DNA of 36,855 bases, taken from assembly GCA_029288835.1 (NCBI GenBank), contig JARIGN010000022.1:1-36855 (forward strand). The letters are read 5' to 3'. Position numbers and translations under genes: made by a program. The DNA comes from Candidatus Kaiserbacteria bacterium (GTDB lineage Bacteria > Patescibacteriota > Minisyncoccia > Phycocordibacterales > Phycocordibacteraceae). Positions 2,118-5,813 of the stretch are shown in pieces (position 1 is the first letter of the stretch; the number at the start of each line of letters is the position of its first letter). The notes below the pieces were generated by a model, which saw only the letters and a program-made list of their open reading frames with translations, had not been told where the DNA came from and did not search any database.

Positions 2118-3422
2118 ATGTCTAAACGCGTCACTCCAGAAATCGAAACCTTCGCCCGCATCCGTGTGGTAGGCGTCGGTGGTTCCGGAGGAAATGCCAT
2201 CAATCACATGATCAACTCCAAAGTGAAGGGAGTTGAGTTCGTGGCGGTAAATACTGATGCGCAGGACCTCCATCGTTCGCTCGCAAAGCGCAAGATCCAC
2301 ATGGGCAAGAACCTCACCCATGGGCTCGGTGCCGGCATGAACCCAGAGCTCGGCCGCCGTGCTGCTGAGGAAACTCGCCAGGAGATCCAGGAGGCACTCC
2401 AAGGCTCAGACATGGTCTTCATAACCTGCGGCATGGGTGGTGGCACCGGAACTGGTGCAGCGCCAACCGTGGCAAAGATCGCCAAGGAAATGGGTGCGCT
2501 CACTGTGGCGGTCGTGACACGTCCTTTTGCTTTTGAGGGCGCAGCCCGCAATGTAATCGCAGAAAAAGGACTTGCAGACTTGAAAAAGGAAGTAGACGCA
2601 TACCTCATCATCCCAAATGACAAGCTCCTCGCTATCGTTGAGGCCCAGACGAGCGCAAAGAACGCGTTTGCCCTTTGTGATGAAATCCTTCGCCAGGCAG
2701 TGGAAGGCGTTTCAGACATCATCACCACCCCAGGTGAAATCAACACCGACTTTAATGACGTGAAGACCATCATGGAAGGCGCAGGTCCTGCACTCATGGG
2801 TATTGGTATTGCCGAAGGCGACAACCGTGCACGCGACGCAGCAGCGCAGGCCGTCAACTCCCCGCTTCTCGACGTTTCTATCAATGGCGCAAAGGGTATT
2901 CTCTTCGTGGTTGCTGGTTCAGAAGACCTCGGCATACTCGAAGTGCAGGAAGCGGCAAAGGTTATTGGTGAGTCCGTTGATAACTCGGCAAAGGTTATCT
3001 TTGGTATTATGCGCGACGAGAAGCTTAAGAAGGGCCAGATCCGCATCATCGTGATCGCAACCGGCTTCCCTGAAGGCGCAAGCGGCGAGACAAACAGCGG
3101 CGGTATCGAGCGTTCCCTTTTCGCGATGGAGCCAAAAGAGCAGCAGGAGATTAAGCGCAGCGTTTTTGGTGACGGCCTCCTCGGCAGCCGCCGTGAAGAG
3201 ATCCTTCCTGAGCCAGTTCGTGAGAATATAAAGGAAGAAGCGGTTGACCCAACCCCTACAACGCCGGTGCAGCCTCCTTCACGCCGCACTCCTGAACCTA
3301 TTGTCACTGCCCAGCCGCAGCGTCGCATCGACAATGAGATGATTACGCCACCGAGCGTTGACGAAGACGAAGATGATACGTGGGGTGCGATTCCAAGCTT
3401 TTTGCGCAGGCATAAGAAATAG
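2118..3422 (+). CDS. ftsZ: Cell division protein FtsZ
   Basis: GGGTGTGAAP tubulin signature; C-terminal conserved peptide IPSFLRRHKK. Confidence 0.98.
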   Translation: MSKRVTPEIETFARIRVVGVGGSGGNAINHMINSKVKGVEFVAVNTDAQDLHRSLAKRKIHMGKNLTHGLGAGMNPELGRRAAEETRQEIQEALQGSDMVFITCGMGGGTGTGAAPTVAKIAKEMGALTVAVVTRPFAFEGAARNVIAEKGLADLKKEVDAYLIIPNDKLLAIVEAQTSAKNAFALCDEILRQAVEGVSDIITTPGEINTDFNDVKTIMEGAGPALMGIGIAEGDNRARDAAAQAVNSPLLDVSINGAKGILFVVAGSEDLGILEVQEAAKVIGESVDNSAKVIFGIMRDEKLKKGQIRIIVIATGFPEGASGETNSGGIERSLFAMEPKEQQEIKRSVFGDGLLGSRREEILPEPVRENIKEEAVDPTPTTPVQPPSRRTPEPIVTAQPQRRIDNEMITPPSVDEDEDDTWGAIPSFLRRHKK

Positions 3423-3425
3423 GGA

Positions 3426-3505
3426 GAAACAAAAATACCCCAAAAAGTGTGCGCTCCGGGCCGCTTGGCCGAGTCTTACACACTTTTCTGGGGTATTTTT
3501 GTTTC
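3426..3505 (+). terminator. Long hairpin (about 25-bp stem) with conserved 27-nt apical loop, copy 1
   Basis: gaaacaaaaataccccaaaaagtgtg / cacacttttctggggtatttttgtttc with one bulge; loop CGCTCCGGGCCGCTTGGCCGAGTCTTA. Confidence 0.85.
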
Positions 3506-3540
3506 TGCTATACTGCTCTTATACTCGTTATTGAAATCTC

Positions 3541-4506
3541 ATGAATCCGGAATACGACTTGATCATTATAGGCGGTGGGCCGGCAGGTGTCGCGGCAGGT
3601 GTCTATGCGGCGCGTAAGCAGCTGAAGACGCTCCTCATTGCTGAGGAGTTTGGCGGGCAGAGCACCGTCTCGGAGGGAGTGGAAAACTGGATCGGCACGA
3701 TAAAGATCCCCGGCGTAGAGCTTGGCAAGCAGCTGAAGGCCCATTTAGAGGCATACAAGGGTGAATGGGTGACCACGCTCGAGGATCGGGTCACACAGCT
3801 TACTAAAGCATCAGCAGAAGGTTCAGGCATCCTTTTTACGGTCACCACAAAAGGCGGCAAGACTGCTACCGCGAAAGCCGTGCTTATAGCCTCAGGTGCG
3901 GGTCGCCGCAAGCTCCCCGTTCCCGGTGCCGATGTGTTTGAGAACAAAGGCCTCACGTATTGTGCCTCCTGCGATGGGCCGCTCTTTGCCGGCATGGACG
4001 TGGTGGTTATCGGCGGCGGCAACGCGGGCTTTGAGAGCGCCCTCCAGCTTCTTGCCTATTGTAAGACCGTCACGCTCCTCAATCGCTCTGCAGAATTTAA
4101 GGCAGATCCTGGCACGGTCGAGCAAGTAAAGGCACACCCGAACGCCATCATCCTTACCGAAACTGAGCCTGTCGAAGTAAAAGGTAACCCCGCTACCGGT
4201 GGCAACTTCGTGGGCGGCTTAGTAATTAAGAATTCAAAAATGGGTGAGCAGCGTGAACTTCCTGTGGCGGGTATCTTTGTTGAGATCGGCGTTATTCCAA
4301 ACACTGACTTCGCAAAAGAGGTCGTCACCCTCGACGCTTTCAACCGCGTCGTGACCGATCCAAAGAACCAGCACACGAGCGTAGAAGGAATCTGGGCTGC
4401 CGGTGACTGCACCGACGAACTCTATCACCAAAACAACATTGCTGCAGGCGACGCCGTCAAGGCCCTCGAGGACATCTACCTTTGGGTAAAGAAGACAGCA
4501 GCCTAG
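3541..4506 (+). CDS. trxB: Thioredoxin reductase (FAD/NAD(P)-dependent)
   Basis: GGGPAGVAAGVYAARK, redox motif CASC, second nucleotide motif VIGGGNAGFESA, C-terminal GIWAAGDCTD. Confidence 0.93.
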   Translation: MNPEYDLIIIGGGPAGVAAGVYAARKQLKTLLIAEEFGGQSTVSEGVENWIGTIKIPGVELGKQLKAHLEAYKGEWVTTLEDRVTQLTKASAEGSGILFTVTTKGGKTATAKAVLIASGAGRRKLPVPGADVFENKGLTYCASCDGPLFAGMDVVVIGGGNAGFESALQLLAYCKTVTLLNRSAEFKADPGTVEQVKAHPNAIILTETEPVEVKGNPATGGNFVGGLVIKNSKMGEQRELPVAGIFVEIGVIPNTDFAKEVVTLDAFNRVVTDPKNQHTSVEGIWAAGDCTDELYHQNNIAAGDAVKALEDIYLWVKKTAA

Positions 4507-4588
4507 CCAGCACAAAATAGCCTTTGCCGTGTGTAAGACATGGCCAAGCGGCCCCGGAGAGCACACGGCAAAGGCTATTTTGTGCTGG
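4507..4588 (-). terminator. Long hairpin (perfect 27-bp stem) with conserved 28-nt apical loop, copy 2, inverted relative to copy 1
   Basis: ccagcacaaaatagcctttgccgtgtg / cacacggcaaaggctattttgtgctgg; minus-strand loop CTCTCCGGGGCCGCTTGGCCATGTCTTA. Confidence 0.85.
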
Positions 4589-5813
4589 GGGGAGTAACCA
4601 TGTCCCAGATCAGCGCAGCCACATTCCGCGGCTTTCCTTCATACGGCAAATGGTGATTATCAAAAAAGGGCATTGAGTTGCATTCGAGAATGCCGCACCG
4701 CTCCTGCTCCTTCCAGCTTTTTGAAATGTCTTTGATGATGAAATCAATCCCCACGATAGGCGCTTTCAGCTCGCGCGCTGCTTTTTCAAAAAGCTCAATA
4801 TTTTCTGGATGCGTTTCATCGGTGACATCCGCCGTCGTACCCCCCACGCTCCAGTTCACCTTTTGATGAAAATAGACTCGCTGCCCTTTCGGTGGAATGC
4901 TTTCGAGCGTAAGCTTTTGCCATCTCAGTTCTTCCGCTGCCTTCTCATTGAGCTGTATCTTTGAGAAATAGGGACCGCCACGCTGCGGATTCTTATTTTC
5001 CTCTTCCACGAGCTCTGTAACAGTATGCACTCCGTCCCCCACCACCGAAGGCGGGTCGCGGCGCAGTGCAGCGGCAAACTTCCCGTCCACGCACGTAGCT
5101 CTGTACACAGGGCCCACAAGCTCTTCCTCGATAACCACTTGGGGTGATACCTGTTTCCCTACGCGAAAGGCCTGCAAAAGCTCGGCTTCGTCCGCAATAT
5201 GGAGCGTGGTGTGGCGTGAGCCGGAGCCAGAGTGAGGCTTCGCAATCACGGGCGGCGTAACACGGCGATGTATTTCCAGAGCTTCTTTTTCAGTTTTTGC
5301 CGAGCCTCCCTTTGCCACTGGTAAGCCACGCCTCATAAATTCCTCCTTTAGCTTTGCCTTATTATCCATCCACCACACATGGTCATCACCAGCAGGAGGG
5401 TTTGGAATACCTTCAAAATCAATGACACGCTCGCGCTTTCTGCCTTTTGAATCAGTATAGGGAATGCGCGCATGAAATACATTGCGTGGCAGGTCAAAAA
5501 GCCGCCATTCCCACATTTCTATTCCTCGTGCATTGGCTTCCTGCCAAAGCATCTGCGCGAGGAGCTGCGTGTGCTCATCGTGTTGAGAATACTTTTTGGC
5601 AAGACCAAGTGCTACTGCCCCTCGCAAGAAATAGGGACCAATCCAGTTCTCAAACTTTTCGGCAGCTTTTGCGAGAAAAGAAGGCTTTTCTGAAGAAGTA
5701 AAGAGCGAGGCAAAAAAATCATCGATGGCGATGAGGAAATACGTAGAGCGATGATAGATGCCTTCACCACCGCATTCGACACATTCTTGGGGTTTGGGAA
5801 GCGCAAAGGCCAT
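4575..5813 (-). CDS. ATP-grasp domain protein (cyanophycin synthetase/glutathione synthetase-like ligase domain)
   Basis: PPVIAKPHSGSGSRHTTLHI, VIEEELVGPVYRATCVDGKFAAALRRDPPSVVGDGVHTVTELVEEEN, GIDFIIKDIS..GILECNSMP typical of ATP-grasp ligases. Confidence 0.8.
   Translation of the reverse strand: MAFALPKPQECVECGGEGIYHRSTYFLIAIDDFFASLFTSSEKPSFLAKAAEKFENWIGPYFLRGAVALGLAKKYSQHDEHTQLLAQMLWQEANARGIEMWEWRLFDLPRNVFHARIPYTDSKGRKRERVIDFEGIPNPPAGDDHVWWMDNKAKLKEEFMRRGLPVAKGGSAKTEKEALEIHRRVTPPVIAKPHSGSGSRHTTLHIADEAELLQAFRVGKQVSPQVVIEEELVGPVYRATCVDGKFAAALRRDPPSVVGDGVHTVTELVEEENKNPQRGGPYFSKIQLNEKAAEELRWQKLTLESIPPKGQRVYFHQKVNWSVGGTTADVTDETHPENIELFEKAARELKAPIVGIDFIIKDISKSWKEQERCGILECNSMPFFDNHHLPYEGKPRNVAALIWDMVTPPSTK

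Follow-up and report, generated by a model that had tools for sequence, protein, structure and literature searches.

Two long hairpins flank a trxB-like gene in a genome of Candidatus Kaiserbacteria, with unrelated outer stems and nearly identical tips. What kind of element keeps its tip while its stem changes, and is the pair peculiar to this locus? The window, meaning the whole stretch of DNA analysed (36,855 nt), is contig 13 of the host genome G000 (802 kb, 37 contigs). Its relevant features are as follows; covariance-model E-values are rough (shortened calibration), with the best scores far above the threshold.

2118..3422, plus strand: ftsZ, the 5' neighbour of hairpin 1 (Pfam Tubulin, 1.7e-49; FtsZ_C, 4.4e-29)
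3427..3451, plus strand: 5' arm of hairpin 1, AAACAAAAATACCCCAAAAAGTGTG, starting 4 nt past the ftsZ stop codon
3452..3478, plus strand: tip of hairpin 1, core strand CGCTCCGGGCCGCTTGGCCGAGTCTTA, complement TAAGACTCGGCCAAGCGGCCCGGAGCG (covariance-model match, E=1.8e-19)
3479..3505, plus strand: 3' arm of hairpin 1
3541..4506, plus strand: trxB-like NAD(P)/FAD oxidoreductase gene, between both hairpins (Pfam Pyr_redox_2, 1.3e-40)
4507..4533, minus strand: arm of hairpin 2 adjoining the end of trxB, whose stop codon finishes at 4506
4534..4561, minus strand: tip of hairpin 2, core on the minus strand, CTCTCCGGGGCCGCTTGGCCATGTCTTA (covariance-model match, E=1.4e-12)
4562..4588, minus strand: opposite arm of hairpin 2, containing the ATP-grasp stop codon (4575)
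4575..5813, minus strand: ATP-grasp-like gene, ending within hairpin 2 (weak Pfam match, ATP-grasp_3, 7.3e-6)

The hairpins flanking trxB

A preliminary description of this DNA had reported two hairpins with unrelated stems and near-identical tips, and both are present as described. Their tips are 92% identical over 26 nt, in inverted orientation, and both strands of both hairpins fold far more stably than shuffled sequences (z about -9). The stem of hairpin 2 is a perfect 27 bp (arms 4507-4533/4562-4588); that of hairpin 1 consists of a 22-nt arm pair with 95% complementarity plus GTGTG/CACAC, and its tip holds a mini-stem, GGCC-GCTT-GGCC, enclosed by an internal loop. Hairpin 2 sits between the convergent trxB and ATP-grasp genes, and one of its arms encodes the final codons of the latter.

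No Rfam family matched the hairpins at the gathering score. The sub-threshold matches were to microRNA precursors only and are generic to any long hairpin, and this identity was discarded. The idea that trxB is cargo between two inverted ends was also dropped, as relatives without hairpin 2 keep this gene and its neighbours in synteny. When the 5' arm of hairpin 1 was compared by BLAST with the 802-kb genome, it matched nothing but its own opposite arm. Within the window alone the chance expectation for the tip pattern is 0.37, and two tips there could almost be chance.

A tip family on covarying stems

Across the whole genome the pattern GGCCGCTTGGCCNNGTCTTA has 11 matches, compared with 0 for the reversed control, which excludes chance. 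One of the 11 (L009), within coding sequence, seems to be a chance match, and a variant copy at C20:78840 was added by a covariance model built on a 30-copy alignment. The tip repeat is thus a family, not a local oddity. With the same model, 52 of 93 same-genus genomes proved to carry the element, no copy being detected in the other 41; in a sample of 380 genomes from the whole phylum, 6 had it. Over all genomes scanned, copy numbers run from none to 36 or more.

Among the matches listed in a scan of GTDB contigs, the exact tip occurs at least in Parcubacteria/Kaiserbacteria, Adlerbacteria, Nomurabacteria and Peregrinibacteria, in many Saccharibacteria and in several Bifidobacterium species; among these, long stems lie under all but a few of the exact tips shown, and the genomes reached in this way hold 2 to 36 copies each. 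In Bifidobacterium, which belongs to another phylum, the element was found in 51 of 112 genomes, one of which (G211) holds 52 near-identical copies. The G211 copies (loci L419-L437) have conserved stems, lie in many cases close to contig ends, and are embedded in repeats that reach several hundred bp, an amplification specific to this lineage. Searches of plasmids and E. coli gave no convincing match, and the full tip had none in viral contigs, where a first, loose pattern matched only an unrelated phage coding gene. The two stem arms were likewise without a match in viral contigs, which counts against the idea that they are spacers or guides, and that candidate was rejected. We found no paper describing these tips in the open-access literature, an absence that proves little.

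The tip is near-invariant over 27-28 nt, whereas the arms differ between copies yet remain Watson-Crick complements. One base of the tip loop differs among relatives (GCTT, GCTA or GCTC), and in L021 and L026 a mini-stem change is compensated (GGCC/GGCC to GGGC/GCCC). Kaiserbacteria stems have a median length of 27 bp, with arms that are A-rich and then T-rich, like those of a bidirectional terminator. Stems of different copies within one Kaiserbacteria genome are unrelated, and copy-rich genomes contain stem subfamilies in which the inner part is common and the outer part divergent. Whole-hairpin copying alone cannot explain this stem diversity, because same-genome Kaiserbacteria copies share no stem. 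An origin of the stems elsewhere in the host genome was rejected as well, since the G000 arms have no match beyond chance in the rest of the 802 kb. Outside the stem, Kaiserbacteria copies share no common motif (the best upstream 7-mer occurs in 5 of 66 copies). Bifidobacterium stems have a fixed length, a shared consensus and arms that are not U-tract-like, and a partial foot, GGTGACCG, unlike the GTAG/CGTC tag of REP sequences, is present in 7 of 38 copies.

Pairing is nonetheless maintained on these unrelated stems. In the 30-copy alignment 88.5% of cells are paired, and the covariation is 0.66, compared with 0.148 when shuffled and at most 0.20 when slid. Among 36 Bifidobacterium copies, pairing drops from 0.97 to 0.19 between positions 28 and 30, marking a sharp stem end at 28-29 bp; double changes (344, against about 6 single-sided ones) occur at 29 of 30 stem pairs, with a covariation of 0.757 against 0.173 when shuffled. 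The preliminary description had proposed a recurring structured module, and this has held up: further copies exist in the genome and in its relatives, their tip is conserved, and the stems beneath it change and covary.

Wobble intermediates are nearly absent, and the arms covary almost purely as Watson-Crick pairs. A selected RNA helix that evolves stepwise normally passes through many G.U pairs, and template switching at palindromes is a known mutational mechanism. The near-absence of wobble intermediates therefore argues for a concerted change of the arms at the DNA level rather than selection on an mRNA fold. On the simplest reading of the alignments, whatever changes in one arm would be passed on to its partner, through template switching or during mobilisation, and stem covariation alone would not prove an RNA function.

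Placement in genes and empty sites

About one third of the copies lie within long open frames, in both orientations and in differing frames, as called by an ORF-length heuristic rather than curated annotation. Their hosts include the valyl-, isoleucyl-, cysteinyl- and arginyl-tRNA synthetases (the last with two copies in one gene), PrmC, TGT, QueA, MiaA, GatB, RarA, MurB, L4, UvrC and FtsJ. The reading frame is kept in ValRS, PrmC, ArgRS, IleRS, CysRS, TGT, RarA, L4, UvrC, GatB and others. Among the hosts of in-frame copies, genes for translation and tRNA modification seem to predominate, by simple count.

Most copies in G000, on the other hand, begin within about 12 nt of a stop codon, and intergenic copies are found at gene 3' ends (43+34) more often than at 5' ends (18+15). 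The tip had been proposed to follow the sense strand of the gene ending there. At hairpin 2 this rule is weaker than proposed, since the hairpin lies between convergent genes and is antisense to trxB, which ends at its arm, and the rule is not general either: between tandem genes the tip orientation is 38 vs 39. The apparent sense-strand bias was rejected as an artefact of the avoidance of gene 5' ends, as it is gone in tandem contexts.

These data bear on the possibility that the hairpins are protein-bound intrinsic terminators or 3'-end stabilisers, in which the tip would bind a putative RNA-binding factor on the mRNA and the stem need only pair. The position of most G000 copies next to stop codons, the A-rich then T-rich arms of Kaiserbacteria and the presence of two conserved-loop terminator families (E and F, below) in the same genome would all be expected of such a device. 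In-frame copies in essential genes in both orientations, the random orientation between genes, the lack of a U-tract in Bifidobacterium arms and the scarcity of wobble intermediates, which points to arm change at the DNA level, speak against it, and we consider it unlikely. Like intrinsic (Rho-independent) terminators, the element is a hairpin that contains GC, and in G000 its A/T-rich arms directly follow stop codons; unlike them, it has a conserved 27-nt tip, very long stems, insertions within genes and a random tip orientation. The 3'-end placement itself holds for most G000 copies and fails for about one third of all copies. Given the in-gene and randomly oriented copies, termination is unlikely as a defining function, and the data support neither a dedicated terminator nor a sense-strand module for 3' ends. 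Incidental terminator activity in G000, where the arms are A/T-tracted and adjoin stop codons, is plausible from the sequence. Of the readings offered at the outset, a palindromic repeat inserted into or seeding terminators comes close to what the data favour, with the qualification that the terminator role is perhaps only incidental.

Relatives lacking a copy show what occupies the site otherwise. At the junction of trxB and the ATP-grasp gene, the relative G034 has about 10 nt in place of hairpin 2. At prmC, RarA and other loci the empty relative is without both arms and the tip, and valS genes with a copy exceed those without one by about 10 codons. The flanks in these comparisons, the best of their kind, are 75-89% identical, because of which exact junctions and target-site duplications are unreadable. 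No insertion was seen between near-identical genomes, which weighs against a mobile element. In relatives, the same positions in prmC and valS can be taken by other palindromes, and both the prmC linker and the valS loop resemble hot spots that attract hairpins of unrelated kinds. A further kind, a large branched in-frame insertion, is present at the same prmC linker in L202.

One pair of Saccharibacteria sites differs in that an outer native hairpin is common to the occupied and the empty site (L310 vs L326), which suggests an insertion into the loop of an existing hairpin. If this were the rule, the ~27-nt tip alone would move between hairpins, landing in the loops of pre-existing terminators or palindromes, and the stems would be those of the targets. 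The unrelated, terminator-like stems within one Kaiserbacteria genome would then be explained, as would the random tip orientation (expected for insertion into a palindrome) and the other palindromes at the prmC and valS sites. Most empty sites that can be aligned, however, have neither arm, and the sharp, fixed length and shared consensus of the Bifidobacterium stems indicate that there the stem belongs to the element. Movement of the tip by itself is accordingly a rather improbable account of the family.

Between valS orthologues the tip is 93% identical, compared with 71-76% in the flanks, a conservation that could also mean an in-situ function. Together with the occurrence of coding and non-coding copies in both orientations, it could point to a chromosomal landmark, the tip being a putative site for a nucleoid, replication, repair or uptake protein and selected in each genome. 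Such a role fits poorly with the 41 genus genomes in which no copy was detected, with a copy number that varies so widely, and with nearly all of the phylum being without the element; we regard it as very improbable.

Strand asymmetry, proposed mobility and related hairpins

The explanation we favour, with reasonable but far from full confidence, is that the hairpins are small non-autonomous mobile palindromes (about 80-110 bp) that are recognised by their tip on one folded strand and whose arms change in concert. A putative trans-acting factor would recognise the folded tip on one strand, most likely 5'-TAAGAC-YTGGCC-NAGC-GGCC-YGGAGCG-3', and would move or copy the element, probably as a folded single strand. 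The arms would have no required sequence, their concerted change arising from one arm templating the other, during mobilisation or via ordinary template switching at palindromes. Copies would persist where they are harmless, right after stop codons (perhaps as incidental terminators) and in protein surface loops.

The choice of strand comes from residual mismatches in the stems. On the core strand of intergenic copies, A.C mismatches outnumber G.T (101 vs 36; 53 vs 12 copies, p=3e-7), and Y.Y mismatches are far above R.R. The asymmetry is seen in tandem-sense, tandem-antisense, convergent and divergent contexts, tandem-sense alone being not significant, and does not follow the transcribed strand, a further point against a terminator acting on mRNA. 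The same trend is present in 35 independent Kaiserbacteria copies (13 vs 3, and 17 vs 3) and in Bifidobacterium (A.C 27 vs G.T 6). Read on the complement strand, these mismatches become G.T/U and G.A, which are tolerated kinds. The complement strand folds better in 40 of 43 copies with RNA parameters and in 31 of 43 with DNA parameters, and the sequence of its tip would allow tandem G.A pairs (AAGA facing GGAG). From the tolerated mismatches, the better folding and the tandem G.A pairs we infer that 5'-TAAGACYTGGCCNAGCGGCCYGGAGCG-3' is probably the favoured, recognised fold. The asymmetry would fit strand-specific recognition of folded single-stranded DNA; a mismatch-repair bias on the core strand could leave a similar one.

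Several known systems resemble the element in part. Rickettsia palindromic elements (RPE) form sequence families of 105-146 bp within Rickettsia (PMC2229807). Like these and the in-gene palindromes of Wolbachia, the hairpins are long stem-loops of about 100 bp, intergenic and in-frame, in a reduced genome, and the RPE-like feature of in-frame copies in conserved protein genes beside intergenic ones is present. Unlike RPEs, which we compared by description, only the tip is conserved, the arms differ and covary, and the tip spans two phyla. REP sequences are mobilised by TnpA-REP/RAYT, with stems of 6-13 bp and a foot tag, GTAG/CGTC (PMC8266576, PMC3733652). They too are small dispersed palindromes, mostly near gene 3' ends and with one-sided mismatches, and they are bound strand-specifically as folded single strands, to which the mismatch asymmetry seen here would correspond. 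The stems described here are longer, at about 20-35 bp, and conservation lies in the tip; the Patescibacteria copies show no foot tag, and G000 has no Y1 transposase match. Coding palindromes of nematomorph mitochondria are also long, perfect inverted repeats in protein-coding genes; those reach 284 bp and are mitochondrial, and their published abstract mentions no conserved tip (PMC6649704). On balance the tip-A element described here would fit among the small palindromic mobile elements of the RPE/REP kind.

The mobilising enzyme was sought through PF01797 (Y1_Tnp/RAYT). G000, with its 11 tip matches, has 0 PF01797 matches, and no mobilising enzyme was found in it; nor was the IS200/IS605 layout, with a TnpA gene between hairpin ends, seen there. 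Matches occur in 53 of the 93 genus genomes and show a weak statistical link to the element (Fisher p=0.2; Spearman 0.29, p=0.004). A Y1/RAYT transposase was therefore rejected as the obligatory mobiliser, being absent from G000 and weakly associated across the genus. One copy in G069 lies 160 bp from an IS200-like gene, which looks incidental. Many genus genomes encode several RAYT-like proteins of ~220-250 aa, as many as 9 in one genome, that match Y1_Tnp weakly and are possible candidate mobilisers for some hairpin families.

Other hairpins with conserved tips were observed alongside. Family B is a short palindrome, GTCGGGACGT-NNN-ACGTCCCGAC, in 9 of 93 genus genomes and up to 7 per genome; its close variants (GTTGGACGT..) lie in frame at positions in prmC and valS where other genomes have the tip-A element (prmC in L177, L179, L180 and L187; valS in L217). 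Family C has a conserved tip, CTGGCCGACCGAAGGGAGGAGAYCCGAGG, on different long stems (8 of 93 genus genomes; prmC in L198 and L204). Family E, in G000, has the loop GAGCCCATTCAAG, closed by GC pairs, at the end of four terminator-like stems whose sequences differ (L492:2018-2092, L494:5460-5530, L512:5269-5341 and L486:7007-7061), three of the four right after a stop codon; no copy turned up in loci of other genomes totalling about 2 Mb. Family F has the loop CTAAGTGCTYTY on two different A/T-tracted stems in G000 (L502:12127-12192 and L506:10717-10776). A 24-bp hairpin in G000 (L514:4537-4598) with the DnaA-box-like loop TGTTATCCACATAG possibly lies near the replication origin.

Tip families A to F may behave alike in Patescibacteria, with family A reaching Bifidobacterium, as an undescribed class of self-templating mobile hairpin. 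At each move the tip would fold back and prime the copying of one arm into the other, and tip and stem length would be inherited while the stem sequence would not. We put this forward tentatively, as a conjecture that is more likely wrong than right.

Dispersed bacterial palindromes are often dismissed as terminators or REP relics. A tip common to two phyla, on stems that change in pairs, provides a clean way to test how such palindromes make copies of themselves. It is also a warning that strong stem covariation can stem from arm-to-arm templating at the DNA level, without a functional RNA. Bifidobacterium is culturable, which makes both the mobility and the recognising protein testable. For the Patescibacteria, the finding means that streamlined genomes take up and tolerate in-frame peptide insertions in the most conserved proteins of translation.
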